This document shows positions 7,308-23,351 of a stretch of 34,056 bases of DNA, piece after piece. The DNA is from Acidobacteriota bacterium (GTDB taxonomy: Bacteria; Acidobacteriota; Vicinamibacteria; Vicinamibacterales; UBA2999). Position 1 is the stretch's first letter; the number at the start of each line of letters is the position of its first letter. The notes under the pieces were generated by a model. It saw only the letters and a program-made list of their open reading frames with translations. It did not search any database and was not told the DNA's origin. The DNA lies in assembly GCA_009694735.1 (NCBI GenBank), contig SHUG01000016.1, forward strand, positions 1 through 34,056, written 5' to 3'. The position numbers and the translations under genes were made by a program.

Positions 7308-7742
7308 GTGACTGAGGGCGTTTGGATTCCGCTGGCCGGCGCACTGGCCGCCGCCATCGTGGCCCTCGTCGTGTTCTTCTGGCGGAAGGGCCAGCCGTTC
7401 GCCGAGGGCGACGTGTTTCGCGCCAGCCGGTGGTCACGGGGCAACCGGTGGTTCCCGACCCAGGTGTCGGTCACGCCGACCGCGGTGGTGCACTACACAC
7501 CGGAACTGGTCGGCCGCAAAGAACACTCGATCCATATGGCGCATGTGGCGTCGGTCAGCATTGATACCAACTTGTTCTTCTCCAACGTGCTCATTGAAAC
7601 GACCGGCGGCACGACGCCGGTGGCGTGCCATGGGCATCGCCAGGCCGACGCGATCCGCATGAAGCAACTGATCGAGCAATACCAGACGCAGTACTACCGT
7701 TCCGCCGGTGCGCCCCCTGCCGCCGAGGTGTCGCGTGGATGA
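7308..7742 (+). CDS. Small membrane-anchored protein with PH-like domain
   Basis: A 144-residue protein starting at GTG. Residues about 6-25 form one hydrophobic helix (WIPLAGALAAAIVALVVFFW), after which RKGQPFAEGDVFRASRW begins a soluble domain of alternating beta strands (FPTQVSVTPTAVVHYTP, HMAHVASVSIDTN, SNVLIETTGGTTPVACHG) ending in an amphipathic helix, DAIRMKQLIEQYQTQYY. This resembles bacterial PH-like domains; the likeness is structural impression, not a confirmed match. Its last bases overlap the start of the downstream regulator (GTGGATGA), so both are probably made together. It could act as a membrane anchor or sensor for that regulator; this is inferred only from the overlap. Confidence 0.7.
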   Translation: MTEGVWIPLAGALAAAIVALVVFFWRKGQPFAEGDVFRASRWSRGNRWFPTQVSVTPTAVVHYTPELVGRKEHSIHMAHVASVSIDTNLFFSNVLIETTGGTTPVACHGHRQADAIRMKQLIEQYQTQYYRSAGAPPAAEVSRG

Positions 7743-9087
7743 CCTCACCTTCGCCGCGCGCCGCCACAGCGCCGGCAGCAGCGGCCAGCGCGCCGAGCCG
7801 CCCGACATCGAGACCCGGTTCAAGACACTGGTGCAGTCGCCACTGCGCGCCGGCATCCTGCGCTTCCTGTCGGCCCGCCCCAACGAAAAGTTCGATACCG
7901 AAGTGATCATGCAGACGTTCGGGCGCATGCGCCAGGACGTCGAGAACTGCATTCACGAGCTGGTGGAATTCGGCGTCGTCCGCAAGGACTCCGGCGACCC
8001 GGCCACCTACGGCGCCATGCGTCCTGACGCCGAGCCAGCGGCAAAGCTGCTCGAGGTCTTCCTCGAGGGCCGCGCCTACCTCGGCATCGAGGAAGCCTCG
8101 CCCTCGGTGCAGCGCTTCCGCGAGATGATCGGGCGCGACGAGAAGATGCTGGCCATCTTCGAGTGGATCCGCACGGCGGCCAAGTCCGACATTTCGGTGC
8201 TGATCCTGGGCCCGACCGGCTCGGGCAAGGAGGTGGTCGCGCGGATGATCCACGAACTGTCGCGGCGCGGGCCCGAGAACTTCCAGGCCGTCAACTGCGC
8301 GGCGCTGCCCGATAGCCTGTTCGAATCGGAAATCTTCGGCTTCGAGAAAGGCGCGTTCACCGGCGCGCACGATCGAAAACCCGGCCGCCTCGAACTGGCC
8401 AACGGCGGCACGTTGTTCCTCGACGAAGTGGGCGACATGTCGCTGATGGCGCAAGCGAAGCTGCTGCGCGTGCTCGAAGAGCGCCGCTTCGAGCGCTTGG
8501 GCGGCAACAAGTCGATTCACGTCGACTTCCGCCTGATCTCGGCGACCAACCGCCCGCTCGACATGTTCGTGCGCGAGAGCCGCTTTCGCGAGGATCTCTA
8601 CTACCGGATCAACGCCTTCGCGATTCGCCTGCCTTCCCTGCGCGAGCGCGCGGTCGACATTCCGGTACTCGCCAACCGCTTCCTCGCGCGCTACTGCGCG
8701 GCCAACGGACTGCCGCTCGATGCCAAGCAGTTCTCATCCGAATCGCAAGACCTGCTCGCCTCGTACCACTGGCCCGGCAACATCCGCGAGCTCGAGAGCA
8801 CCGTGTCGAGAGCCGCGCTGTCGGCGCCAGGGCGATCGATTCGGGCCGCCGACATCGAGTTCCTGCATGGCCATGCGATGCCGCGAGCGGACGAGACCTC
8901 CAATCGCCTGCCGTCGCTGCGCGACTCCGAGCGAGCCCACATCATCCGCGTCCTCGAGGCGACGGAGTGGAACAAGCTCGAAGCGGCCAAGGTGCTCGAC
9001 ATCAGCCGGGGCACGCTCTACCGCAAGATCGACGAGTACGGTCTCGAGCCCGCCGTGGGCAGCGGCCGGCGCCGTGGCCGTTCCTGA
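7735..9087 (+). CDS. Sigma-54-interacting AAA+ transcriptional regulator
   Basis: A 450-residue bacterial enhancer-binding protein. It has an N-terminal winged-helix-like region (about 20-80: TRFKTLVQSPLRAGILRFLS, then VIMQTFGRMRQDVENCIHEL), a central AAA+ domain with Walker A GPTGSGKE near residue 158, the sigma-54 contact loop GAFTGA near 205, Walker B GGTLFLDEVGDM near 226, an arginine-rich SHWPGNIRELE-type sensor region (here YHWPGNIREL), and a C-terminal Fis-type helix-turn-helix (EAAKVLDISRGTLYRKIDEYGL). It should activate sigma-54 promoters. There is no phospho-receiver or GAF domain; a winged helix in that place is less usual. The GTG at 7735 overlaps the preceding gene and gives a better start than upstream ATG at 7708, which lies inside it. 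Confidence 0.88.
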   Translation: MDDLTFAARRHSAGSSGQRAEPPDIETRFKTLVQSPLRAGILRFLSARPNEKFDTEVIMQTFGRMRQDVENCIHELVEFGVVRKDSGDPATYGAMRPDAEPAAKLLEVFLEGRAYLGIEEASPSVQRFREMIGRDEKMLAIFEWIRTAAKSDISVLILGPTGSGKEVVARMIHELSRRGPENFQAVNCAALPDSLFESEIFGFEKGAFTGAHDRKPGRLELANGGTLFLDEVGDMSLMAQAKLLRVLEERRFERLGGNKSIHVDFRLISATNRPLDMFVRESRFREDLYYRINAFAIRLPSLRERAVDIPVLANRFLARYCAANGLPLDAKQFSSESQDLLASYHWPGNIRELESTVSRAALSAPGRSIRAADIEFLHGHAMPRADETSNRLPSLRDSERAHIIRVLEATEWNKLEAAKVLDISRGTLYRKIDEYGLEPAVGSGRRRGRS

Positions 9088-9220: not shown

Positions 9221-9415
9221 TACATGTCTCCGGTTGCGTCCAATTCTAGAGATTTATCCTTTTTGTATGACTCTTTGGTTGTGTATGATCCGCAGGTTGT
9301 GAAGCTGTTACGCGCCCCCCAGCGCCCCGTCCACTCGTCTCGAGGCTCGAATTGGTTCGCTGCGGAAGCCATTCGATCCAAGGCGGTCTGGGGTTCAAAA
9401 GAAGAAACAGCGCAC

Positions 9416-11947
9416 ATGCGCTCCTTGCCCCTCCCTGCCCGAATCTACATCGGCGCCACCATCGCAATCGGCGCCCTGCTGGTGGTATTGCTCGGCCCGA
9501 AGTCGACATTTGCCAGTCCGCTCCTCTTCTCCGCCCTGCTCCTGACATCCGCCATTACCTCGGCCTTCAAGGTCAGCCTGCCGCTCGCCAAGAGTGGCTC
9601 GACGATGTCGGTGTCGTACGCGGTGGACTTCGCATCACTCCTCTTGCTGGGCCCCAACGAAACGATGCTCGTCGCGGTCATCAGCGCGTGGAGCCAGTGC
9701 ACCTTCCGCATGAAGGTGAGGAATCCCATCTACCGCACGCTGTTCCGCATGGCGTGCCTGGCGATCACGGTGCAGGCCGCCGGGTTCGCCTACGAAGTGC
9801 TCGGCGGCGATCCGGGAAAGCTGGCGCATGACGTTCTGGGCCTGGCCAAGCCGCTCGTCGCCGCCGGGGCGATGTACTTCGTGTTCAACACGTGCCTGAT
9901 CGCCATTGCCGTGGCGTTGGCCACGCGCCAGGCATTCGGAACGGTTTGGAACCAGAACTTCCTCTGGAGTGCTCCCAGCTACTTCGTCGGCGCGGGCGCC
10001 GCTGCCCTCGCGACCTGGGCGGTGATGACCTCGGGCGTCTACGTCTACGTCGTCCTGCTGGCCGCAGCGCCGCTTTACGTCACCTATCGCAGTTACAAGG
10101 TCTACCTCGGACGCATCGACGATGGGCGCCGGCGCGTCGAGGAGATGGCGGATCTTCACCTGGCGACCATGGAAGCGCTCGCGCTCGCCATCGACGCCAA
10201 GGACCAGACCGCGCAGTCGCACATTCGACGCGTCCAGGTTTATGCCACCGGCCTTGCGCGCGGTCTCGGCATGTCAGACACCGAGATCCAGGGCGTCAAG
10301 ACCGCAGCCCTGCTGCACGACATCGGCAAGCTCGCCGTGCCCGAGCACATTCTGTCCAAGCCCGGTCCGCTGACCCAGGAAGAGCTCCAGAAGATCCGTG
10401 TTCACCCCCAGGTGGGCGCCGAAATCATCAGCGCCGTGCCGTTCCCATACCCGGTGGCGCCGCTGATCCTCAGCCACCACGAGCGCTGGGACGGCAAGGG
10501 CTACCCGCAGGGCCTCAAGGGCGAAGAGATTCCCCTCGGCGCCCGCATCCTGTCGGTGGTCGATTACTTCGATGCCCTCACTTCGGATCGGCCGTACCAC
10601 AAGGCCATGACGCACGACGCGGCGGTCGCGCTGCTGCAGCAGGAGGCCGGACGGGCTCTCGACGCGACCGTGGTTGCCATGTTCGTGAAGATGGAAGTCG
10701 AGATGGCCGCGGCGGCGGGCACCATCGACACCGCCACGCCACGCCGCCTGTCAATCGAACCGACCAACGAGCGCGGCCGTCCGGCGGTGGGGTTCCAGCC
10801 CGAATCCACCAAGAGCAACACGGTGTTCGAAGACATCGCGCTCGCGCACCGCGAAATCTACGCCCTCTGCGAGATCGCCCAGACCATGGGCACCAGCCTC
10901 GGTGTCTCTGACACGATGGCGCTGATTTCGTCGAAACTCACGAACCTGGTGCCGTTCTCGTCATGCGCGCTGTTCCTGTTCGACGAGGAAGTCGACACGC
11001 TCCGCTGCCGCTTCGCCACCGGCGTCGAGGCCGAGGCGATTGGCACCATGTCGGTGCGCGCCGGCCAGGGACTCACCGGCTGGGTGGCCCGCAACCGCCG
11101 TCCGCTGGTCAACGCGCGGCCGAGCGCGGAATTCGAGGCCGCCGGGCTGACCGCGGTCGCCACCACGCTGCAATCGGCGCTGGTCACGCCGCTGGTGTTC
11201 AGCGATCGCTTCATCGGCACGCTGGTGGTCTACTCGACCCAGGCGGACTTCTACACCGACGATCATCGCCGCCTGCTCGATCGCGTCAGCGAGCAGGCCT
11301 CGGCGGTAATCCACAACTCGATCGTGTTCGAGCAGACGCAGGAAGACTCGCTGACTGACCCGCTCACGGGCCTGCCCAACACCCGCTTCATGTTCATGCA
11401 CCTGACGCGCGAGCTGGCGCGGGCCGAACGCCTGAAGGCCGAAGTGGCGCTGCTGGTCATGGACCTCGACAACTTCAAGGCAATCAACGACAGCCACGGC
11501 CACCACATCGGCGACCGCGTGCTGCGCGAAGTGGCCACCGTGCTGCGCTCCGCGATTCGCCCATACGACATCTGCGTGCGCTACGCCGGTGACGAGTTCA
11601 TCGTGGTGCTGTCCGGCTGCGGCGCGGAGGAAGCGGACCGCAAGCGGCTCGAGTTGCAGCGCACCGTGGACGATGTGCTGTTCGAGGCCCGTCCGGGCCG
11701 CCGGCTGCCGCTCGCGATCAGCGTCGGCGCCGCCATCTACCCGCAAGACGGCGAGAGCTACGAAGCGCTGCTGGTCACGGCCGACAGCCGCATGTATCGC
11801 GATAAGTCACGACGCAAGCAGCGCGTGCAGGTGCAGCCGGCCGCGACCGGCACCGACGGCCTCCCGGCGGTGAACGTGCCGTTGCAGCCGGTGATCACCG
11901 AAATCACCGAGATCGACATTCAGCGGGCAGGCTTTGGGGTGCTGTAG
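9416..11947 (+). CDS. Membrane c-di-GMP turnover protein: HD-GYP, GAF and GGDEF domains
   Basis: An 843-residue protein with about seven N-terminal membrane helices (residues 5-225), an HD-GYP phosphodiesterase domain (HDIGK near 300, LSHHERWDGKGYP ending near 363), a GAF sensor domain (about 480-630) and a C-terminal GGDEF cyclase domain (about 645-800). The cyclase signature is AGDEF near 723, a variant seen in active cyclases. Making and breaking activities in one polypeptide suggests signal-controlled switching, with the GAF domain between them. An in-frame extension to an ATG at 9224 exists, but its base composition and sequence do not resemble the rest, and it follows a dyad directly; the ATG at 9416, just before the first membrane helix, is preferred. 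It faces the oxidoreductase gene end to end. Confidence 0.88.
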   Translation: MRSLPLPARIYIGATIAIGALLVVLLGPKSTFASPLLFSALLLTSAITSAFKVSLPLAKSGSTMSVSYAVDFASLLLLGPNETMLVAVISAWSQCTFRMKVRNPIYRTLFRMACLAITVQAAGFAYEVLGGDPGKLAHDVLGLAKPLVAAGAMYFVFNTCLIAIAVALATRQAFGTVWNQNFLWSAPSYFVGAGAAALATWAVMTSGVYVYVVLLAAAPLYVTYRSYKVYLGRIDDGRRRVEEMADLHLATMEALALAIDAKDQTAQSHIRRVQVYATGLARGLGMSDTEIQGVKTAALLHDIGKLAVPEHILSKPGPLTQEELQKIRVHPQVGAEIISAVPFPYPVAPLILSHHERWDGKGYPQGLKGEEIPLGARILSVVDYFDALTSDRPYHKAMTHDAAVALLQQEAGRALDATVVAMFVKMEVEMAAAAGTIDTATPRRLSIEPTNERGRPAVGFQPESTKSNTVFEDIALAHREIYALCEIAQTMGTSLGVSDTMALISSKLTNLVPFSSCALFLFDEEVDTLRCRFATGVEAEAIGTMSVRAGQGLTGWVARNRRPLVNARPSAEFEAAGLTAVATTLQSALVTPLVFSDRFIGTLVVYSTQADFYTDDHRRLLDRVSEQASAVIHNSIVFEQTQEDSLTDPLTGLPNTRFMFMHLTRELARAERLKAEVALLVMDLDNFKAINDSHGHHIGDRVLREVATVLRSAIRPYDICVRYAGDEFIVVLSGCGAEEADRKRLELQRTVDDVLFEARPGRRLPLAISVGAAIYPQDGESYEALLVTADSRMYRDKSRRKQRVQVQPAATGTDGLPAVNVPLQPVITEITEIDIQRAGFGVL

Positions 11948-13506: not shown

Positions 13507-13507
<1 letters not shown>
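12734..13507 (-). CDS. fabI: Enoyl-[acyl-carrier-protein] reductase (NADH), FabI type
   Basis: A 257-residue short-chain dehydrogenase/reductase that performs the last reduction of fatty-acid chain elongation. N-terminal GLIVGVANHRSLAWAIA is the FabI-type cofactor loop, CDVGDDQQI follows the second beta strand, and the active-site pair Tyr-x6-Lys is in YNVMGVAKAALE (about 154-161). IRVNAISAGPVKTLAAAGI matches the FabI substrate-binding loop, and GEVLMVDAGFHV is the C-terminal strand. The ATG at 13507 shares one base with the stop of the upstream gene (TGATG), so translation is coupled. FabI is the classical target of triclosan and isoniazid-like inhibitors in other bacteria. Confidence 0.93.
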
Positions 13508-14259
<752 letters not shown>

Positions 14260-14434
14260 GCAACTCCCCCGAAAACCCGATCGGCTTCCCGCCAAGCCGC
14301 ATCGGTACTGGTCTTCTACTGCTTCGAACCGTTGGTCCACGGGCCGCGAACACGAGAGCGGCCGAGGGTCGTGTTGAGTGCGGGAAGCGCCTGTTCGGTC
14401 GGTAGACCGCAGGGCGCAGGGCATTCGCAATATA

Positions 14435-15823
14435 TCAGAGGCCCGTGCCCTGGGCAAGCCACGAACGCAGATTGACCAGCGCTGCCGCCACGGCATCTGG
14501 ATGGGTCGATTGTGGTGTCCTCCTGGCGCGGACCGAGGCGGCCGCCGTCACCCGGTCCTTGACATCGTCGCCAAACAGGCCGCTCGACTGGCGCCATTCG
14601 GCCAGTGACAGCGCCTCGAAGTCGCGGCCTTCCGACAGCAGCTTGCGAACCATGGCGCCAACCACTTCATGCGATTGGCGGAACGGCATGCCGCGCGACA
14701 CCAGGTAGTCAGCCACGTCGGTGGCAAGGAGCAACCCTGACGCCGCTTTCCCGGTGCGCTCCGGATGGAGTCCGAGCTTGCCAATCACCGCCGCCGTCGC
14801 CGCCAGCGACACCGCTAGCGTGTCTTCCGAATCGAACAGCGGCTCTTTGTCTTCCTGAAGGTCCTTGTTATAGCCAGTCGGCAGTCCCTTCATGGTGATC
14901 AGAAAGCCGGTCAGGTGACCAATGACGCGGCCCGACTTGCCCCGGACCAGCTCCAGCGGATCCGGGTTCTTCTTCTGCGGCATCATGCTGCTGCCGGTGG
15001 CCGACGAATCGGCCAGTTCGAAGAACCCGAATTCCTCGCCGGTCATCAGGATGAAGTCCTCGGCGATGCGCGACAAGTGCACCATCGACAGCGAGACGGC
15101 GTGCAGGAAGCTGACGGCGAAGTCGCGGTCGGACGAGGCGTCCATGCTGTTCGGCACGACGCGCGCGAAGCCGAGCCGTGCGGCGAGGGCGGCGGTGTCA
15201 ACCGCGTAGCCGGTGCCGGCAATCGCGCCAGACCCCAGTGGCAGCGCGTTGGCCTCTTCGCGCGCGATCTCGAGACGATGATGGTCGCGGCGCAAGGCGG
15301 CGGCGTGGCTCAGAAGAAAGTGCGACACCAGCACCGGCATGGCGCGGCGCATGTGGGTGTAGGACGGCATCAGCGCGTCGCCGGCCCGCTCAGCCTGGTC
15401 GGCAAACGCGGTGATCGCGGCCCGCAGCTTCTGCTGCAGCAGCGGAATGCGGCGGCGAAGATACAGGCGCAGGTCGAGCGACACCTGCTCGTTACGCGAA
15501 CGGCCGGTATGCAGGCGCCGGCCAGCATCGCCAACGCGGGTCACGAGCTGACGCTCGACGAAGCTGTGCACGTCTTCGTCGTCGCCGGTCACCCACGCCG
15601 GATCCTTCCGACCCTGTTCGAGAATGGCCGTGAGGGCCTCGGCGATCGACCGTGCGTCGGCGGCATCGAGCACCCCGGCGTGCGCCAGCGCCTCTGCCCA
15701 CGCCAGGCTCCCGGTGACATCGTCTTCGAAGAGCCGGCGATCGAAGAGAAACGACACACCAAAATCAAACGCCGCGGGATCGGGAGCGGAGTCAAAGCGG
15801 CCAGACCAGAGGTGTTGGGACAT
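14435..15823 (-). CDS. argH: Argininosuccinate lyase
   Basis: A 462-residue enzyme cleaving argininosuccinate to arginine and fumarate, the last step of arginine synthesis. The fumarase/aspartase signature GSSMMPQKKNPDPLE is intact near residue 280, TGRSRNEQVSLDLRLYLR near 105 and YTHMRRAMPV near 155 (usually YTHLQ-AQP) mark other active-site segments. The length matches the family. It follows argG with only 12 bases between, in the leftward unit argR-argG-argH, so it should share the control region at 17344-17490. Start ATG at 15823 is at the expected MSQHLWSGRFD. The 175 bases between argH and the next gene show no clear terminator. Confidence 0.96.
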   Translation of the reverse strand: MSQHLWSGRFDSAPDPAAFDFGVSFLFDRRLFEDDVTGSLAWAEALAHAGVLDAADARSIAEALTAILEQGRKDPAWVTGDDEDVHSFVERQLVTRVGDAGRRLHTGRSRNEQVSLDLRLYLRRRIPLLQQKLRAAITAFADQAERAGDALMPSYTHMRRAMPVLVSHFLLSHAAALRRDHHRLEIAREEANALPLGSGAIAGTGYAVDTAALAARLGFARVVPNSMDASSDRDFAVSFLHAVSLSMVHLSRIAEDFILMTGEEFGFFELADSSATGSSMMPQKKNPDPLELVRGKSGRVIGHLTGFLITMKGLPTGYNKDLQEDKEPLFDSEDTLAVSLAATAAVIGKLGLHPERTGKAASGLLLATDVADYLVSRGMPFRQSHEVVGAMVRKLLSEGRDFEALSLAEWRQSSGLFGDDVKDRVTAAASVRARRTPQSTHPDAVAAALVNLRSWLAQGTGL

Positions 15824-15835
15824 CGGCGTTAAGGG

Positions 15836-16897
15836 TTAGGCGTGCGGAGCAACGGGGTTGCCTGAGCGGCCGACCATGCGGCTATCGCCCTTGAATAGTC
15901 TCACACGCACGGTGCCGGTCACGCCTTCCTGCGCGGAGGTCACGAACGCGTCCAGTCCCTGGCGCAGCGGACTGAACCATTCGCCGCGACCGAGCACCCC
16001 GGCATAGGCGGCGGCTACCGCATGCGAAAATCGGATCAGGCTCTCAGAGGCGCTGAGGCGCTCGAGATCGCGGCGTGCGCCATGAAGCACGGCGGCCGCG
16101 GGCGCCTCGTAGAGCACCCGCCAGCGCGATCCATCAAGGCGGGTCTTCACGCGATCGAACCGGCCGACTCCGTGCTCACCAGCAATCGTCGACAGGCTGT
16201 CGACCAGTTCCGCCGGCGTCATGGCGACGCCGTTGATCCCCGTGGGCGCGCCCCGTTCGAACGACAGCTCGACAACGGCGGGACTGGCAGGCGTCTGCGC
16301 GAGACTGCGCGACAACTTGAAAGCCGTATCCGGCGCCTCTTGCGAGGCATCGTCGGTCGAACGGCCGACGGTACGACCCCACAGGTTGTCATCAATCCGG
16401 TCGGCGCCCGCCGCCGGCACCGAGATGCCAAGGCGGTCGGCATATTCCGACACCTGGGCGGGTGTCATGCCGTCACCGGAGGCCATCGCCAGTGAACCAT
16501 CGAGCGCGCGGAGGGGTTGCTCGATGCGCGCGCGATCGCGGCCCTTTGAACCGTGCGCCACCAGCGTCGCGCCCTCGATGTGCGCAATCTCGGCGAGTTT
16601 TTTCGCAATTAGCGGACGCGACATGGCCGTGGCCATGGGATAGCCACCGTCCGCCAGCGCGCCGGCCCGCAGCGTCGGCCACACGAAGTCGCGGACAAAC
16701 TCTTCGCGCGCGTCAATGACGTGCGCGCGTACCGCACCGGCCGCCACCGCGCGGTCGCGAATCTCGGCGAGGTCGGCGGACTGCCCGAGGTCGAGCGTGA
16801 CCGCGACCACCTCGGTATCGTGACGATCCGCCAGCCATGGAATGGCGACGGAGGACTGCAGCCCACCCGAATAGGCGATCACGATCGGCTTCTTCAA
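15836..16897 (-). CDS. argG: Divergent argininosuccinate synthase
   Basis: A 353-residue ArgG-type enzyme, shorter than the usual 400. It would join citrulline and aspartate using ATP. The P-loop-like ATP motif is AYSGGLQSS (usually SGGLDTS). The conserved TGKGNDQVRFE segment that binds citrulline and aspartate reads SKGRDRARIE, about two residues shorter and lacking the Asn. The YSIDENLWGR segment reads DRIDDNLWGR. FSPLRQGLDAFV, KHGVGR-like EHGVGRFD and VTGTVRVRLFKGD remain clear. The C-terminal helical tail is missing beyond GRSGNPVAPHA. Start codon is TTG at 16897, overlapping the argR stop (TTGA). Position between argR and argH makes an arginine role likely, but the altered pocket is notable. 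Confidence 0.85.
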   Translation of the reverse strand: MKKPIVIAYSGGLQSSVAIPWLADRHDTEVVAVTLDLGQSADLAEIRDRAVAAGAVRAHVIDAREEFVRDFVWPTLRAGALADGGYPMATAMSRPLIAKKLAEIAHIEGATLVAHGSKGRDRARIEQPLRALDGSLAMASGDGMTPAQVSEYADRLGISVPAAGADRIDDNLWGRTVGRSTDDASQEAPDTAFKLSRSLAQTPASPAVVELSFERGAPTGINGVAMTPAELVDSLSTIAGEHGVGRFDRVKTRLDGSRWRVLYEAPAAAVLHGARRDLERLSASESLIRFSHAVAAAYAGVLGRGEWFSPLRQGLDAFVTSAQEGVTGTVRVRLFKGDSRMVGRSGNPVAPHA

Positions 16898-17343
16898 CGT
16901 GCGAGGTCCTTCAGCTTCTTCACCACGGCCAGCGCGTTCTTCGCATCGCGGGCAATGATCAAGATGGTGTCGTCACCGGCAAGGGTGCCGACGACCTCCG
17001 GCAAACGCGAGCGATCGATCGTCAGGCCGAGCAGCTGCGCCTGGCCGGCGCCGGTCCGCAGCACGATCAGCTGCTGCACCGGTTCAATGTTGATCAGGTA
17101 CGCCGTCAGCGCCTTGCCGAGCGTACCCAACGCCGTCGGCTGAGGGGTCTCTTCACTGGCCGAGGGCTGATACGCCCCATCGGCCGATCGCTTCAACAAC
17201 CCCAGCTCCTTGATGTCGCGCGACAGCGTGGCCTGGGTGACGACGAACCCGCGCGTGGCGAGCCGTTGCCGGAGCTGTTCCTGGCTGCGCACGGCTTCGT
17301 GCTCGACCACGTCCTGGATGGCGGAGAGGCGTTGGGCTTTCAT
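16894..17343 (-). CDS. argR: Arginine repressor
   Basis: A 149-residue ArgR. The N-terminal winged helix (MKAQRLSAIQDVVEHEAVRSQEQLRQRL, then TQATLSRDIKELGLLK at about 40-55) contains the recognition helix; the C-terminal half carries the arginine-binding trimer interface with GAGQAQLLGLTIDRSRLPEVVGTLAGDDTILII. Length is typical. With arginine it forms hexamers that bind ARG boxes. It overlaps argG by three bases and lies divergently to argC, the usual setting for self-regulation plus control of the biosynthetic operon. The ATG at 17343 is favoured because the conserved part starts there; an upstream frame to 17391 reads through the promoter region. Confidence 0.93.
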   Translation of the reverse strand: MKAQRLSAIQDVVEHEAVRSQEQLRQRLATRGFVVTQATLSRDIKELGLLKRSADGAYQPSASEETPQPTALGTLGKALTAYLINIEPVQQLIVLRTGAGQAQLLGLTIDRSRLPEVVGTLAGDDTILIIARDAKNALAVVKKLKDLAR

Positions 17344-17358
17344 ATTTATGCGTCTGAA

Positions 17359-17372
17359 TGAATCAGTATACA
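17359..17372 (-). promoter_or_regulatory. ARG-box-like site overlapping argR -10
   Basis: TGAATCAGTATACA fits the TGAAT-N4-ATTCA half-site pattern with one mismatch in the second half. On the minus strand it overlaps TATACT (17370-17365), a good -10 for argR, giving a short leader. This would allow ArgR to repress itself. Nearby ATGCAATTACAT (17390-17401) is a 10-of-12 palindrome and may be a weaker third site. Confidence 0.55.
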
Positions 17373-17402
17373 CAACGACTAGGGAATACATGCAATTACA
17401 TG

Positions 17403-17490: not shown

Positions 17491-18534
17491 ATGGATACGC
17501 AGGTGGTCAACGAAACGGAAGGGGACCAGCGGGGCCAACATGCCCCCATTCGCGTGGCGGTAGCTGGTGCCACCGGCTTCGCCGGCCAGGAACTGATCCG
17601 CCTGCTCGCCCGCCATCCAAACGTCACCATCACGGCGGCCACCGGCTCGCAGTCGACCAGCGCGCCACGCCGTCTGCCTGCGCTCGCGCGAATTTGGGAC
17701 GGCACGGTGGTGCCGCTCGATGTCGCAGCCGTTGCCGCTGACGCTGACGCCGTATTCCTGGGGCTTCCCGAGGCCGCGTCGGCCGAGATCGCGCCGGTGC
17801 TGCTCGCCGCGGGGGTCCGGGTGATCGATCTGTCAGGGGCGTTCCGTTTGCGTGACGACGCGGTGCGGTCGCGTTGGTATCCGGCTACCAAGTCGCTGCC
17901 TGGTGGCGTCGCCTACGGCCTCACCGAGTTCGAGTTCGAGGCGATTCGCACGGCCAAGCTGTTGTCGAATCCCGGCTGCTACCCCACCGCGTCGTTGCTC
18001 GGCCTGCTGCCGTTGCAGCGTGCCGGCCTGTTGCTGCCGGGCGCCGACATCGTCATCGACGCGAAGTCTGGCATTTCTGGCGCCGGCAAGGCGCCCTCGG
18101 ATCGGACGCACTTTTCCGAGAACCACGGCAGCGTCGCCGCCTACAACCCGTTCGGCCATCGTCACGCGCCCGAAATGGAGCAGGCGCTGGGACGCAGCGT
18201 GACGTTTGTGCCGCACCTGGTGCCGCTCGACCGCGGGATCCTGTCGAGCCTCTACACGCGCCTCGTCCCTGGCACGACGCCGGCGGCGGTGGCGGCGGCG
18301 TTCGATGCGGCATACGCAAGCGCGCCGTTCGTCCGGCTGACCGGTGACGCACTGCCGGAGATCAAGCACGTTGCCCACACCAACTTTTGCGACATCGGCT
18401 GGAAGGTTGATGAAGCGACTGGTCGCGTGTTCGTCGTCAGCGTGATCGACAACCTGGTGAAGGGCGCAGCGGGACAGGCCATCCAGAACTTCAACGTGAT
18501 GTTCGGCCTTGACCAGAAGGCAGGTTTGCTGTGA
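17491..18534 (+). CDS. argC: N-acetyl-gamma-glutamyl-phosphate reductase
   Basis: A 347-residue NADPH-dependent enzyme reducing N-acetylglutamyl phosphate to the semialdehyde. Visible parts: nucleotide-binding GATGFAGQELIRLLARHP near residue 28, the catalytic cysteine in SNPGCYPTASLLGLLPL near 165, and HRHAPEMEQ in the substrate side. The first ~20 residues (MDTQVVNETEGDQRGQHAPI) are a short non-conserved tail. AGGGAAG lies directly before the ATG at 17491. First gene of a tight plus-strand operon; its stop overlaps the GTG of argB (GTGA). Confidence 0.96.
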   Translation: MDTQVVNETEGDQRGQHAPIRVAVAGATGFAGQELIRLLARHPNVTITAATGSQSTSAPRRLPALARIWDGTVVPLDVAAVAADADAVFLGLPEAASAEIAPVLLAAGVRVIDLSGAFRLRDDAVRSRWYPATKSLPGGVAYGLTEFEFEAIRTAKLLSNPGCYPTASLLGLLPLQRAGLLLPGADIVIDAKSGISGAGKAPSDRTHFSENHGSVAAYNPFGHRHAPEMEQALGRSVTFVPHLVPLDRGILSSLYTRLVPGTTPAAVAAAFDAAYASAPFVRLTGDALPEIKHVAHTNFCDIGWKVDEATGRVFVVSVIDNLVKGAAGQAIQNFNVMFGLDQKAGLL

Positions 18535-19340
18535 AGCGGCCGGTCGTGTTGAAGCTCGGTGGCGAGCTGATCGAAGGCGCGGAGCGGCTGAAGGCCATCG
18601 GCAAGGTCATCAAGCAGGCCTCGAAGACCCGGCCGTTGATTGTGGTGCACGGCGGGGGCCGCGAGATCGATGCGTCGCTGGCGCAGGTCGGCATCCCCAA
18701 GCGCCAGGTCGACGGCCTGCGCGTGACCGACCCCGAGACGCTGGAGATTGTCGTCTCGGTGCTGGCGGGATCGATTAACACGCGGTTTGTCGCGGCGATT
18801 AACGCCGCGGGTGGGCGCGCGATTGGCCTGACCGGCGCCGACGCCGGCGTGGCACCGGTGAAAAAGGCCGCGCCGCATAAGGCGACCAGCGGCGACACCG
18901 TGGATCTCGGCATGGTCGGCACCCCGGTGACCAGGGCTTTGGCGCCTGAACTGCTCACGCTGCTGTGCAATGCCGGCTACGTGCCCGTAATTGCCTGTGT
19001 CAGCGCGTCGAAGGAAGGGCAACTGTTCAACGTCAATGCCGACACCCTGGCTGGCAGCCTGGCGTCGCGCGTCAAGGCCAAGCGCCTCGTGATTGCCGGG
19101 GCAACCGCCGGCGTGCTCGACAAACGCGGACAGACCATTCCGCGCCTGAACCAGACGCAGATCGCGAAGCTGGTCACCTCGGGCACCGCGAATGCGGGCA
19201 TGGTGGCCAAGCTGAGCGCCTGCCAGGCGGCCCTGGCCGGCGCGAGCAGCGTGGTGATTATTGACGGGCGTGACGCCCGGCGGATCGCGCAGGCCGTCGC
19301 GCTGGAGAAGACCAGCGCCACCTCGAGGATTGTGAAATAG
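18531..19340 (+). CDS. argB: N-acetylglutamate kinase
   Basis: A 269-residue amino-acid kinase phosphorylating N-acetylglutamate. The fold is marked by LKLGGELIEG near residue 8, the VVHGGGREIDASLAQ glycine loop near 40, and FNVNADTLAGSLASRVKAKRLVIAGATAGVLD (nucleotide and substrate side). The start is GTG at 18531, overlapping argC. The enzyme lacks the N-terminal extra helix linked to arginine feedback in some ArgB forms, so feedback may instead act through ArgR only or on the acetylglutamate synthase; this is inference. Confidence 0.95.
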   Translation: MKRPVVLKLGGELIEGAERLKAIGKVIKQASKTRPLIVVHGGGREIDASLAQVGIPKRQVDGLRVTDPETLEIVVSVLAGSINTRFVAAINAAGGRAIGLTGADAGVAPVKKAAPHKATSGDTVDLGMVGTPVTRALAPELLTLLCNAGYVPVIACVSASKEGQLFNVNADTLAGSLASRVKAKRLVIAGATAGVLDKRGQTIPRLNQTQIAKLVTSGTANAGMVAKLSACQAALAGASSVVIIDGRDARRIAQAVALEKTSATSRIVK

Positions 19341-19342
19341 CC

Positions 19343-20566
19343 GTGAACACGAACACCCAGACCGTGACCGCGCTCGAAGCGCGGCACGTGCTTCAAACCT
19401 ACAAGCGGCAACCCGTGGTGTTTGTCCGCGGTGAAGGCACCCGGCTGTTCGACGTCGACGGGCGCTCCTACCTCGACTTCATTTCGGGGATCGGCGTGGT
19501 CGTGCTCGGCCATGCACATGCGGGTCTGGCGGCGGTCATTGCCGAGCAGGCGAAGACGCTCGTCCACACGTCGAATCTCTATTACCACCCGCTGCAGGGC
19601 CAGCTGGCCGCCCGCTTGTCGGCGCTCTCGGGCCTGCAGCGCGCGTTCTTCTGCAACAGCGGCACGGAAGCGGTCGAGGCGTGCCTCAAGTTCGCGCGCC
19701 GCTTCTGGTACTCGCAGGGTGTGAAGAACCGCACCGGGTACGTGGCACTCGAACACGGGTTCTCGGGCCGGACGATGGGCGCCTTGTCGGTGACCGCCAA
19801 CGCGCACTACCGCGACCCGTTCGAACCGCTGATTCCCGGCGTCACGTTCGTGTCGCCCGACGACATCGCCGGCCTCGAGGCCGCCGTCACGGAGGCGACC
19901 GCCGCAATCATCGCGGAACCGATCCAGGGCGAAGGCGGCGTGCGTCCGTTGTCGCCGGAGTTTGCGGCCGCCATCACCCGCGTGACCAAGAACACCGGCA
20001 CGCTGCTGATCGCCGACGAGATCCAGTGCGGCCTCGGCCGCACCGGCCGGCCGTTTCACTACCAGGCATTCGGCTGGACGCCGGACCTGGTCACGGTCGG
20101 CAAGGCGATTGGCTCGGGCGTCCCGATTGGCGCCGCGCTGGTTGCCGAACGTGTGGCCGCCCAGATTTTCGCCGGCGACCACGGCACCACTTACGGCGGC
20201 AACCTGCTGTCGACGCGCGCGGCACTGTACGTGCTCGACGAGCTGGCAGCGCTCGCGCCCCACATTGCCGACGCGGGCGGGCTGTTCGAGCGCCGCCTGC
20301 TCGACCTGCAGAAGAAGCACCCGGTCGTCGCGGCCGTGCGCGGAGCTGGCCTCATGCGCGGGCTCGAGCTGACCGTGGATGCGCAGCCGGTGGTCGAGGC
20401 GGCGTTGAAGGCCGGCCTGCTCGTGAACCGGACGGCCGAACGGGTGGTCCGCATGTTGCCGCCGCTCACGGTGTCGAAGGCGGAGATTGAAGAAGCCATC
20501 ACGATTCTTGATGGGGTGTTGGCGTCAGTCAGGGTCGAGGGATCGACGGCCGAGGTGAAAGCGTGA
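19343..20566 (+). CDS. argD: Acetylornithine aminotransferase
   Basis: A 407-residue class III PLP aminotransferase converting N-acetylglutamate semialdehyde to N-acetylornithine. Motifs: FISGIGVVVLGHAH, NSGTEAVEACLKFARRF (PLP phosphate side) near 110, DEIQCGLGRTG near 228 with the PLP-ring Asp, and the Schiff-base lysine in TVGKAIGSGVPIGA near 255. It begins with GTG, two bases after argB, and its stop overlaps the next GTG. Some ArgD enzymes also serve lysine synthesis as DapC. Confidence 0.95.
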   Translation: MNTNTQTVTALEARHVLQTYKRQPVVFVRGEGTRLFDVDGRSYLDFISGIGVVVLGHAHAGLAAVIAEQAKTLVHTSNLYYHPLQGQLAARLSALSGLQRAFFCNSGTEAVEACLKFARRFWYSQGVKNRTGYVALEHGFSGRTMGALSVTANAHYRDPFEPLIPGVTFVSPDDIAGLEAAVTEATAAIIAEPIQGEGGVRPLSPEFAAAITRVTKNTGTLLIADEIQCGLGRTGRPFHYQAFGWTPDLVTVGKAIGSGVPIGAALVAERVAAQIFAGDHGTTYGGNLLSTRAALYVLDELAALAPHIADAGGLFERRLLDLQKKHPVVAAVRGAGLMRGLELTVDAQPVVEAALKAGLLVNRTAERVVRMLPPLTVSKAEIEEAITILDGVLASVRVEGSTAEVKA

Positions 20567-21162
20567 CGATGCGTGTTGTCGTTGATAACGGACCAGGGAA
20601 AGGGCGACGCGCTGCGGGCGCCAAGAGTCGGCGGGCGGCCAAGCCCGCAACGGCGCTTCGTGCCGCCGTGTCGGCCGATGCGCCGGCCCTGCACGCCCTG
20701 ATCGCCGCGCACCTTGAAGAGGGACGGCTGCTGCCCCGCACGCTCGCCGAGCTGGCGGACCACGCGCATCGATTCGTCGTCGCCGTCCAGGCCGAACGCA
20801 TCGTCGGCTGCGCTGAACTGGCGCCGCTGTCGGCGGCGGTCGCCGAAGTGCGCTCGCTGGTGGTGAGCGCCGAGGCGCGTCAGGCAGGACTCGGTCAGCG
20901 CATGGTCGACGAACTGGGCCGTCGCGGGTGCCGCGAGGGCTTTACCAGCCTGTGCGCATTTGCTCACGACCCGCGGTTCTTCGTGCGGCTTGGCTTCTCG
21001 ATCGTGCCGCACACCTGGGTGCCCGAGAAGATCGCGCACGACTGCCATTCGTGTCCGCTGTTCCGCAACTGCGGGCAGTACGCCATCGTCCTGGATCTTG
21101 AACGCGCCCACGCCATGACCGATGCCGGCACGGGCGCGGCGGTTGGGAATCGCCGTGGGTAA
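20563..21162 (+). CDS. argA: GNAT-type short N-acetylglutamate synthase
   Basis: A 199-residue protein whose core is a single GNAT acetyltransferase domain: LRAAVSADAPALHALIAAHLEEG, IVGCAELAPL, and an acetyl-CoA loop in VSAEARQAGLGQRMVDELGRRG. The ending VPEKIAHDCHSCPLFRNCGQYAIVLDL, with its Cys-rich loop, is characteristic of the short stand-alone acetylglutamate synthases of many bacteria rather than the long kinase-fused ArgA. The first 30 residues are Lys/Arg-rich and not conserved; internal ATG at 20569 is an alternative start. Lying between argD and argJ, it would supply the first acetyl group, while ArgJ recycles it. Confidence 0.85.
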   Translation: MTMRVVVDNGPGKGRRAAGAKSRRAAKPATALRAAVSADAPALHALIAAHLEEGRLLPRTLAELADHAHRFVVAVQAERIVGCAELAPLSAAVAEVRSLVVSAEARQAGLGQRMVDELGRRGCREGFTSLCAFAHDPRFFVRLGFSIVPHTWVPEKIAHDCHSCPLFRNCGQYAIVLDLERAHAMTDAGTGAAVGNRRG

Positions 21163-22366
21163 CATCAACGCCATCGACGGCGGCATCACCGCTCCAGCCG
21201 GCTTTCGCGCCAGCGGCCTGCACTGCGGCATCAAGGCCAGCGGCAAACCCGACCTCTCGCTCGTCGTCAGCGACGCCGCGGCGCAGGCCGCCGGTGTCTT
21301 CACGCTCAACCTCGCTAAAGCGGCGCCGCTGCTGGTGTGCGAGGACCACCTGGCCGCCACGGGCGGACGCGCGCGCGCCATCATCACCAACAGCGGCTGC
21401 GCCAACGCCTGCACCGGACCACAAGGCATGACCGATGCGCGTGAGATGGCAGCACTAACCGCGGCCGCGGTCGGCTGCGATGTGCAGCAGGTGCTGGTTC
21501 TCTCAACCGGCGTGATCGGCGTCAACCTGAAGATGGACAAGCTCCGATCAGGCATTCCGCAGGCGGTCGCGGAACTGAGCGAGCAGGGCGGCGCTGCCGC
21601 GGCTCGCGGCATCATGACGACCGACCCGTTTCCGAAGGAGTACGCCGTCGAAGTGCGCACCGACATCGGATCGTTCCGGGTCGGCGGCATGGCCAAGGGC
21701 TCGGGGATGATCGAGCCGCGGATGGCGACGATGCTGGGTTACCTGACGACGGATGCGACGGTCGACCCCGTGATGCTGTCGCGCGTGCTGTCAGACGCGT
21801 GCCGGTTCACGTTCAATGCGATTACCGTCGACGGCGAGCCCTCGACCAACGACTGTGTGCTGGCGCTGGCCAATGGCGCCAGCGGCGTGGAGGTCACCGA
21901 GAACCTCTACCCGGAGCTGTTCGAGGCGTTTCGCACGGTGGCCCACGAGCTCGCGCTCGGCGTCGTTAGGGGCGGCGAAGGCGCCACCAAGCTGATTGCA
22001 ATTACCACCACTGGGGCGGCGACCGACGCCGATGCCTGGATGGCGGCTCGCGCGATTGCCAACTCACCGCTCGTCAAGACAGCCGTCCACGGCGGCGATC
22101 CCAACTGGGGCCGCCTGGTGGCCGCGGCCGGTCGTTCGGGTGCCGCGTTTGTGCTCGACGGCGCGCGGGTCCAGATTGGGTCGCTGGTGCTATTTGAGAA
22201 CGGCCGCCCGTTCGACGAACTGGCGCCCCAGGCAGCCGACTACCTCACCGGCAAGGACATCGCGATCGAGGTCAATCTCGGCACGGGCGGGACCCACCGC
22301 GCGACCGTGTGGACCTGCGATCTGTCGGCCGAATACGTCAAGATCAACGCTGAGTACAGAACCTAA
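21155..22366 (+). CDS. argJ: Bifunctional ornithine acetyltransferase / N-acetylglutamate synthase
   Basis: A 403-residue enzyme moving acetyl from acetylornithine to glutamate. ArgJ cuts itself at an Ala-Thr bond; here the site lies in KGSGMIEPRMATML (usual IAPNMATML), with the Thr near residue 188 as nucleophile. AIITNSGCANACTG, LVLSTGVIGV, CRFTFNAITVDGEPSTNDCVLALAN and GDPNWGRLVAAAGRSG are clear family segments. Start GTG at 21155 is chosen, with GGGA about seven bases before it, and gives an N-terminus NINAIDGGITAPAGF that is typical; an ATG at 21122 would overlap the preceding gene by 41 bases. Confidence 0.94.
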   Translation: MGNINAIDGGITAPAGFRASGLHCGIKASGKPDLSLVVSDAAAQAAGVFTLNLAKAAPLLVCEDHLAATGGRARAIITNSGCANACTGPQGMTDAREMAALTAAAVGCDVQQVLVLSTGVIGVNLKMDKLRSGIPQAVAELSEQGGAAAARGIMTTDPFPKEYAVEVRTDIGSFRVGGMAKGSGMIEPRMATMLGYLTTDATVDPVMLSRVLSDACRFTFNAITVDGEPSTNDCVLALANGASGVEVTENLYPELFEAFRTVAHELALGVVRGGEGATKLIAITTTGAATDADAWMAARAIANSPLVKTAVHGGDPNWGRLVAAAGRSGAAFVLDGARVQIGSLVLFENGRPFDELAPQAADYLTGKDIAIEVNLGTGGTHRATVWTCDLSAEYVKINAEYRT

Positions 22367-22427: not shown

Positions 22428-23351
22428 GTGCAGAATTTTCTCTCTATTCTCGATCTCGATCCGGACCGCCTCGCCAAGGTGCTCGCGCTCGCCGCGAAGC
22501 TGAAGCGCGAACGCGTCAAGGGGATGAAGGCGCCAACCGCAGCCGCCCTCAATGGCAAGCATGTCGGTTTGCTGTTCGAGAAGCCGTCGCTGCGCACGCG
22601 CGTTACTTTCACGATCGGCGTCCGCGAACTCGGCGGTGACATCGTTGAGATTCCCGCCGACGTGATGCATGCCGACCGCGAGCCGATCCAGGACGTGGCT
22701 CGCAACCTGGAACGCTGGGTCGATGCCGTGGTCATCCGCACCTTCGCGCAGGAACGCCTGTCGCAGATCGCGGAGATGACCCCCAAGCTGCATGTCATCA
22801 ATGCGCTCAGCAACGAGGAACATCCGTGCCAAGCGCTGGCCGACATGCAGACCCTGACGGAAAAATGGAGTTCGTTCGAGGGCCGGCGGATCGCCTTTGT
22901 CGGCGACGGTAACAACGTCTGCGCATCGCTGGTTCACGTGGCGATGATGCTCGGCATGGCCGTGCGTGTGGCGACCCCGAAAGGCTACGAACTGCCGGAC
23001 GAGGTCGTCGACCAGGCCGCTGCCGTGTCGCAAGAGGGGGCCGGACTCACCGAGTTCACTGACCCCAAGGCGGCGGTGCGTGATGTCGACGCGGTCTACA
23101 CCGATGTCTGGACGTCGATGGGACAGGAAGTCGAGTACGCCGATCGCAAGAAGCTGTTCCAGCGCTACCAGGTGAACGAGAACCTGATGGCGCTGGCCAA
23201 GCCGGACGCGCTGTTCATGCATTGCCTCCCCGCCCACCGCGGCGAAGAGGTGACCGACGAGGTGATCGAGTCGCCAATCTCGGTGGTGTTCGATCAGGCC
23301 GAGAACCGTCTGCACGCGCAGAAAGCGCTGCTCGTGCAGATGCTCACGTAG
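22428..23351 (+). CDS. argF: Ornithine carbamoyltransferase
   Basis: A 307-residue transcarbamylase forming citrulline from ornithine and carbamoyl phosphate. The carbamoyl-phosphate motif is EKPSLRTRVTF (SxRTR) near residue 50, followed by HPCQALADMQT near 130, FVGDGNNVC near 155, DVWTSMGQE (the ornithine-specific SMG loop) near 225 and HCLPAHRGEE near 263. The SMG loop argues for ornithine rather than an acetylated or succinylated substrate. Start is GTG at 22428; GAAGG lies 10 bases upstream. Last gene of the operon, 61 bases after argJ; converges on the S9 peptidase. Confidence 0.95.
   Translation: MQNFLSILDLDPDRLAKVLALAAKLKRERVKGMKAPTAAALNGKHVGLLFEKPSLRTRVTFTIGVRELGGDIVEIPADVMHADREPIQDVARNLERWVDAVVIRTFAQERLSQIAEMTPKLHVINALSNEEHPCQALADMQTLTEKWSSFEGRRIAFVGDGNNVCASLVHVAMMLGMAVRVATPKGYELPDEVVDQAAAVSQEGAGLTEFTDPKAAVRDVDAVYTDVWTSMGQEVEYADRKKLFQRYQVNENLMALAKPDALFMHCLPAHRGEEVTDEVIESPISVVFDQAENRLHAQKALLVQMLT

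Follow-up and report, generated by a model that had tools for sequence, protein, structure and literature searches.

An argininosuccinate synthase without half of its catalytic residues in the arginine cluster of an acidobacterial order, probably kept as a pseudoenzyme

The window, that is the whole stretch of 34,056 nucleotides analysed here, carries between argR and argH a gene, argG1, whose product belongs to the argininosuccinate synthase (ArgG) superfamily. The catalytic site of this protein is lost, a canonical second ArgG is encoded elsewhere in the same genome, the same state recurs across the order, which we take to be Vicinamibacterales, and the degenerate copies are under purifying selection. 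In the best explanation, to which we assign a probability of roughly 0.6, the ancestral operon ArgG has become, in the window gene, a maintained pseudoenzyme with a non-catalytic role, most likely that of binding or regulating a short N-acetylglutamate synthase (NAGS). The gene is not free to decay, which the sequence-only reading of this DNA had not foreseen.

Results

The operon copy of ArgG in the window

The features of the locus are collected in Table 1. The genes argC, argB, argD, GNAT, argJ and argF run divergently from argR-argG1-argH. The TTG start of argG1, which has 353 codons, shares a TTGA overlap with the stop codon of argR (TGA), and argH starts 12 nt downstream of argG1; both the unusual start and the place in the arg cluster directly before argH were found as first described. 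In most relatives the gap between argH and fabI, which holds a further frame in the window, is about 0.8-1.1 kb.

Table 1. Coordinates of the arginine genes and of some neighbouring features in the window
Feature	Coordinates	Strand	Remarks
sigma-54 activator	7708..9087		adjoins the signalling protein
large signalling protein	9224..11947	+	MASE9, HD, GAF and GGDEF domains
frame between argH and fabI	13507..14496	-	CxxC motif; Gly-Gln, Arg-rich tail; nothing matched in Pfam, nor in NCBIfam for the part 13507-14196
argH, argininosuccinate lyase	14435..15823	-	TIGR00838 514 bits, cut-off 279.5
argG1, putative pseudo-ArgG	15836..16897	-	argininosuccinate synthase fold; half of the catalytic residues and the C-terminal arm missing
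argR, arginine repressor	16894..17391	-	Pfam domains over cut-off; TIGR01529 126.9 bits, just short of the cut-off 130.45
argC	17491..18534	+	TIGR01850 357 bits
argB	18531..19340	+	TIGR00761 182 bits
argD	19343..20566	+	TIGR00707 443 bits
GNAT, short N-acetylglutamate synthase type, proposed partner of argG1	20563..21162	+	PRK07757 and the PRK12308 NAGS domain are the best models, both under cut-off
argJ	21122..22366	+	NF003802 478 bits
argF, ornithine carbamoyltransferase (extent of the family match)	22434..23345	+	TIGR00658 353.9 bits, over cut-off

The three motif changes claimed earlier are present in the protein: AYSGGLQSS is read where the P-loop should have SGGLDTS, the aspartate/citrulline loop has HGSKGRDRARIE in place of HGATGKGNDQVRFE, with two residues gapped in alignment A1, and the third motif reads DRIDDNLW. 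The protein is also shortened as claimed: it has 353 aa, whereas the 12 copies of the order with all 18 catalytic residues are 402-431 aa long. In a family alignment of 24 bacterial sequences conservation reaches 90% or more at the Asp and the Thr of SGGLDTS, which align with residues 14 and 15 of the window protein, and the changes in the window exceed the normal variation of the ArgG family. That the rest of the fold is kept is borne out by the AlphaFold2 model predicted from alignment A1 (24 sequences), with a mean pLDDT of 90.6 and a query-normalised TM of 0.91 to the solved ArgG 6xnq.

The closest known systems are the class-I ArgG enzymes (TIGR00032, PRK00509; T. thermophilus 1kh1, Legionella 6xnq), with which the window protein shares the fold, the argR-argG-argH context and 30-39% identity to the solved structures, scoring 293.8 bits with TIGR00032 (above the cut-off of 268.2) and 322.4 bits with PRK00509 (under the cut-off of 334). 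It differs from them in the replacement of the P-loop Asp and of Thr119, Asn123, Ser180, Ser189, Glu191 and Glu270, in the aspartate/citrulline loop, which is two residues shorter, and in the loss of the C-terminal arm. The E. coli-type ArgG (PRK05370, NF003779; 1k92) is of the same superfamily but a different subfamily; the window protein reaches 87.5 bits with NF003779 (cut-off 657). ArtA (9leh, 9lei) and argG_rel represent the ArgG fold under another function name; the window protein is 25-26% identical to ArtA and scores 152.7 bits with argG_rel (NF038212), under the cut-off of 425.

Loss of the catalytic site

ArgG is a homotetramer in which each active site is built from residues of two subunits, and the list of active-site residues was taken from the work on human argininosuccinate synthase (ASS) in PMC13289927, available in part. 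The accessible portion of that paper gives D16, T17, T119, N123, D124, R127, E191 and E270 as sensitive to substitution, together with Met377, which lies in the C-terminal loop reaching into the active site of the neighbouring subunit. The residues were put on human numbering by motif, the alignment containing no human sequence. On this numbering 9 of the 18 catalytic residues are kept in the window protein (Ser12, Gly14, Tyr87, Arg95, Gly117, Asp124, Arg127, Asp182 and Tyr282) and the other nine are lost (Asp16, Thr17, Thr119, Lys121, Asn123, Ser180, Ser189, Glu191 and Glu270). The P-loop has thus lost its Asp and Thr, and in the citrulline/aspartate site Thr119, Asn123 and Glu270 are replaced while Asp124 and Arg127 are still present. 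The citrulline-binding Glu270 is a Lys, a loss beyond those named by the sequence-only reading. The C-terminal arm, which in ArgG serves oligomerisation and the active site of the neighbour, is absent. Catalytic residues lost from a fold that is predicted to be kept is the first mark of a pseudoenzyme.

A second ArgG in the genome

The genome of the window is 85.7% complete. On a different contig it encodes a full-length ArgG of the E. coli type (G000:C10:14703-16106; locus L002, 742-2145), with SGGLDTS and STYKGNDIERF and with 879 bits for NF003779 (cut-off 657). This intact enzyme supports the earlier suggestion that another copy does the job; of the refuting case set out in advance, a canonical argG elsewhere with a non-essential operon copy, the first half was borne out. 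In a related genome an extra, broken-up match to the E. coli-type ArgG (G001:C248:885-2094) was seen beside a full copy.

A second ArgG is found in many lineages, mostly one of the E. coli type; in the Luteitalea family it is another class-I ArgG (546 bits, NF001770). It is of another subfamily than argG1 and 27-32% identical to it over long matches. Among the matches listed, another ArgG is present in 67 of the 76 genomes whose operon copy is degenerate or absent, and in none of the 12 that have a perfect copy (Fisher p 1.4e-9, without correction for relatedness; the table was compiled by hand and some counted copies are contig-end pieces). The nine genomes without one among these matches are G015, G027, G031, G040, G044, G053, G063, G071 and G116; incompleteness would lead one to expect 5.6 (P of nine or more 0.10), and three of the nine are 94-98% complete. 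Six genomes with near-intact operon copies stand outside this count; a second copy was found in four (G029, G045, G059, G114) and none in G052 and G069, G052 being 97% complete with a near-intact operon copy in which Asn123 is Ile. At least eight genomes have a near full-length class-I match together with an E. coli-type copy (G066, G067, G075, G076, G088, G098, G107, G109) and, judged from the matches, look like the state before the loss.

In G040, G044, G052 and G053 (loci L063, L064, L067 and L066, respectively), which are 90-98% complete, argF and argH are kept and argG1 is altered. Neither TIGR00032 nor the E. coli-type query found an intact ArgG in these four, which would reflect either an assembly gap or an active altered copy.

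Recurrence across the order

The order belongs to the Acidobacteria and has Luteitalea among its members. Searches were made in 60 relatives, then in the family (43 genomes) and then in the order (162 genomes), and the fetched loci share a conserved arg gene order. The 85 scored operon copies comprise 12 that keep 18/18 residues, 6 that keep 15-17 and 67 that keep at most 9. Beyond the first 60 relatives mainly genomes with altered or missing copies were fetched, and many genomes of the order with near full-length class-I matches stand outside the scoring; since the sample favours altered copies, 67/85 is no prevalence. The six near-intact copies, 371-378 aa long, already miss the region of the oligomerising C-terminal helix, which suggests that the C-terminal arm goes first. 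In 57 of the 67 degenerate copies the position of the P-loop Asp is not Asp (Q, R, A, E, G, H, N, P, S, T, V, or uncovered) and in the other 10 the Asp is still aligned; across the 67 no shared new P-loop motif was found. Luteitalea pratensis, a cultured member of the order, carries a degenerate operon copy.

A quick tree was built from concatenated ArgH, ArgR, ArgC, ArgB and ArgD (97 rows; support is under 80 on 24 of its 94 inner branches). On it the 76 rows lacking an intact copy form 16 maximal clades spread over eight families, a count that assumes irreversible loss and scores near-intact copies as intact; one of the clades is a single row with the gene absent and another a single degenerate row. 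The states form a graded series from perfect copies through a 101-aa remnant (G027) to absence, and several copies of 150-300 aa lack the middle. The remnants between argR and argH at L140 (G027) and L142 (G014) retain a segment like FE.GVPV.VNGV. At L152 / L250 (G085) the operon argG1 has 406 aa, with the catalytic residues altered and the C-terminal part retained, and the GNAT was not found in that genome among the matches listed; this state looks like a recent loss. At nine loci (L133, L135, L139, L141, L143, L235, L238, L239 and L240) argR and argH are adjacent without an argG1 match, by which a role of argG1 as an operon placeholder for the expression of argH was rejected.

Selection on the degenerate copies

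Within genera, the medians of NG86 dN/dS between degenerate copies were 0.14-0.62 in 12 groups, and the shifted-frame controls (0.83-3.16) were higher than the in-frame value in each group. The argH values in the same pairs were 0.06-0.15, those of argG1 being about 2-4 times as high and rough, because dS in many pairs approaches or exceeds 1. The lowest values were the median of g26 (0.14) and the two closest g41 pairs (0.10-0.11); the single g74 pair, with 0.62 in frame against 0.83 in the +1 frame, is hardly distinct from no constraint. The argR values near 2 in g65, g15, canonical g37 and g33, probably artefacts of out-of-frame HSP ends, were left unused. Since these ratios show purifying selection after the loss of the site, the degenerate copies are pseudoenzymes and not pseudogenes, and the medians with their frame controls rule out the pseudogene as the sole account. 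The loss of the site would predate each genus. The copies read have open frames, a few of them lacking a common start codon about where one is expected.

The substrate loops show a rate inversion. Of all parts, KGND and VENR change most slowly in canonical pairs (pN 0.02 and 0.00), whereas in degenerate groups they show 0.08-0.34 and 0.06-0.66, respectively. In g1, g41 and mixed degenerate pairs both loops (0.22-0.66) change faster than the HUP core (0.14-0.21), and g21 has 0.20 for KGND and 0.46 for VENR against 0.22 for the core; the exception is genus g26, which has the lowest loop values (0.08 and 0.06, core 0.07). Among 21 degenerate copies of the window's family, retention was 0.21 in 19 active-site columns and 0.42 in 112 other invariant columns (permutation p 0.003), the contrast being weaker in the window's genus (0.51 vs 0.67, p 0.06). 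Selected positions are conserved in these copies (E107 21/21, L238 21/21, G53 20/21), and the conserved segments span reference residues 33-75 and 214-252. An RNA or DNA element inside argG1 was considered as well and rejected, since synonymous divergence showed no consistent reduction in the conserved segments.

Link to the short NAGS

The GNAT gene that lies between argD and argJ has a product similar to short NAGS proteins, with scores under the model cut-offs, and this product is without the kinase-fold domain of the classical ArgA. In loci that hold both intervals the GNAT is present in 36/36 cases with a degenerate argG1, in 1/9 with argG1 absent or a remnant and in 5/7 with an intact copy; at genome level the values are 66/73 for degenerate, 1/11 for absent and 16/22 for intact copies, with the 101-aa remnant of G027 (GNAT present) counted as degenerate and the G014 remnant (GNAT absent) as absent. 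When both are scored as remnants, the GNAT is found in 2/12 rather than 1/11. The rule that absence of argG1 goes with absence of the GNAT is not strict, G077 having the GNAT without argG1; the GNAT was not seen at genome level in 7 of the 73 degenerate genomes, and the six intact genomes without it belong to families f11, f13 and part of f14. Of five independent locus comparisons for co-loss, 4 agreed, none opposed and 1 was neutral (p 0.125 by sign test); the six at genome level gave on average 4.2, 0.3 and 1.4. The loci L133, L135, L139, L141, L142 and L143 have no GNAT, and there argD runs into argJ by about 15-60 nt, the ends being estimated from matches.

Rate covariation was measured over the 59 branches of a fixed tree, whose 31 rows all have degenerate copies, against seven operon-gene partners. 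The GNAT was the top rate partner of ArgG1 in all five settings (rho 0.42-0.49; 0.40-0.52 after clade removal), and ArgG1 rates showed nothing with argH (rho -0.13) or argR (0.08). Because seven partners were compared, the p value of 0.001 becomes about 0.008 after correction; on internal branches alone the pair ranks 5/28. An artefact of fast genes was checked with quadratic and cubic terms, internal-only and tip-only branches and clade removal, and rejected; argR and argB, the next fastest genes, had no significant covariation with argG1 where listed. GNAT-ArgJ, a functionally linked pair, covaries as strongly as GNAT-ArgG1, by which the method gains credit, and so does argR-argB (0.48), by which the specificity of rate covariation is limited. 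Co-loss, with its few independent events, and rate covariation are two signals that appear to tie the degenerate ArgG1 to the short NAGS.

Discussion

Since argR-argG-argH with an active-looking class-I copy occurs in many families of the order, this state is most simply ancestral. The data support further steps: a second ArgG is present in numerous lineages, mostly of the E. coli type and in the Luteitalea family of class I; some copies miss little more than the C-terminal arm; the wholesale loss of catalytic residues is found in the 16 clades; and the degenerate protein stands under purifying selection. In the window's genome the second ArgG would make argininosuccinate, the window protein would be inactive, and it is probably kept for a non-catalytic job in the arginine pathway. 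It is possibly the partner of the neighbouring acetyltransferase, and most likely would bind or regulate this short NAGS. The wider proposition, that in this order ArgG repeatedly became a non-catalytic subunit or regulator of the short NAGS, the first enzyme of the same pathway, and that the fold of the last-but-one enzyme would in this way supply a control which this NAGS, having no amino-acid-kinase domain, lacks, is a tentative one and on balance we doubt it.

A relic in slow decay, functionless since the second ArgG arrived and seen in lineages at different stages of loss, would account well for the graded series down to the remnant of G027 and to full loss, for losses in as many as 16 clades, for the dN/dS excess over argH and for the several copies without their middle part. 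We consider it unlikely, given dN/dS values well under 1 within genera such as g26 and in the closest g41 pairs, the near-complete conservation of E107, L238 and G53 in the degenerate copies of the window's family, and argG1 rates that follow the GNAT and not argH or argR. An enzyme of the same fold with a new substrate, comparable to the nitrile synthetase ArtA, is improbable. The fold is predicted to be intact and ArgG folds under other names do exist (the ArtA structures match the window protein, and argG_rel is an exception family of NCBIfam), but the argG_rel score lies under its cut-off, there is no new conserved P-loop or substrate motif, and the position of the P-loop Asp and the substrate loops differ between related genera. 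The earlier proposal of a different binding mode or substrate thus found no support: no new motif is shared, the P-loop Asp is lost in most degenerate copies, and the substrate loops are, genus g26 excepted, among their faster-changing parts.

The tetrameric architecture of ArgG, with active sites shared between two subunits, and the second ArgG found so often beside a degenerate or absent copy would also suit a non-catalytic subunit in a mixed tetramer. There is little to recommend it when the oligomerising C-terminal helix region is gone already in the six near-intact copies, the second ArgG is of another subfamily and some lineages without argG1 still keep it. That the window protein is a still-active argininosuccinate synthase with an unusual site seems very improbable to us: its TIGR00032 score is above cut-off and four rather complete genomes have an altered copy with no other ArgG found, but Asp16, Thr119, Asn123 and Glu270, particularly sensitive in human ASS according to the accessible part of PMC13289927, are all replaced, and a canonical copy stands in the window's own genome.

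A comparable case is the TSB-like pseudoenzyme of tryptophan synthase in eudicots, a non-catalytic paralogue that activates a pathway partner (PMC12727527, available in part). The kind of mechanism is that proposed for the pseudo-ArgG, with activation reported there and inferred here, and the enzyme and pathway are unrelated to ArgG. Short NAGS genes are reported to cluster with argH in Thermus and Deinococcus, and an ArgH(A) fusion is known (PMC1382215, available in part); the GNAT beside the pseudo-ArgG resembles this type, and an ArgG partner is not described in the accessible part of that paper. No report of a pseudo-ArgG was found among the literature titles and abstract openings covered, a coverage that leaves out most subscription journals, and the word 'arginine' is absent from the main text of PMC5900883.

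The same enzyme of core metabolism has lost its active site in many clades of this order while the protein is still selected and intermediate stages are alive, a rare natural series for asking what metabolic enzymes do besides catalysis. Because the cultured Luteitalea pratensis carries such a copy, the role of the pseudo-ArgG can be tested. Automatic 'argininosuccinate synthase' labels in this group may denote an inactive protein.
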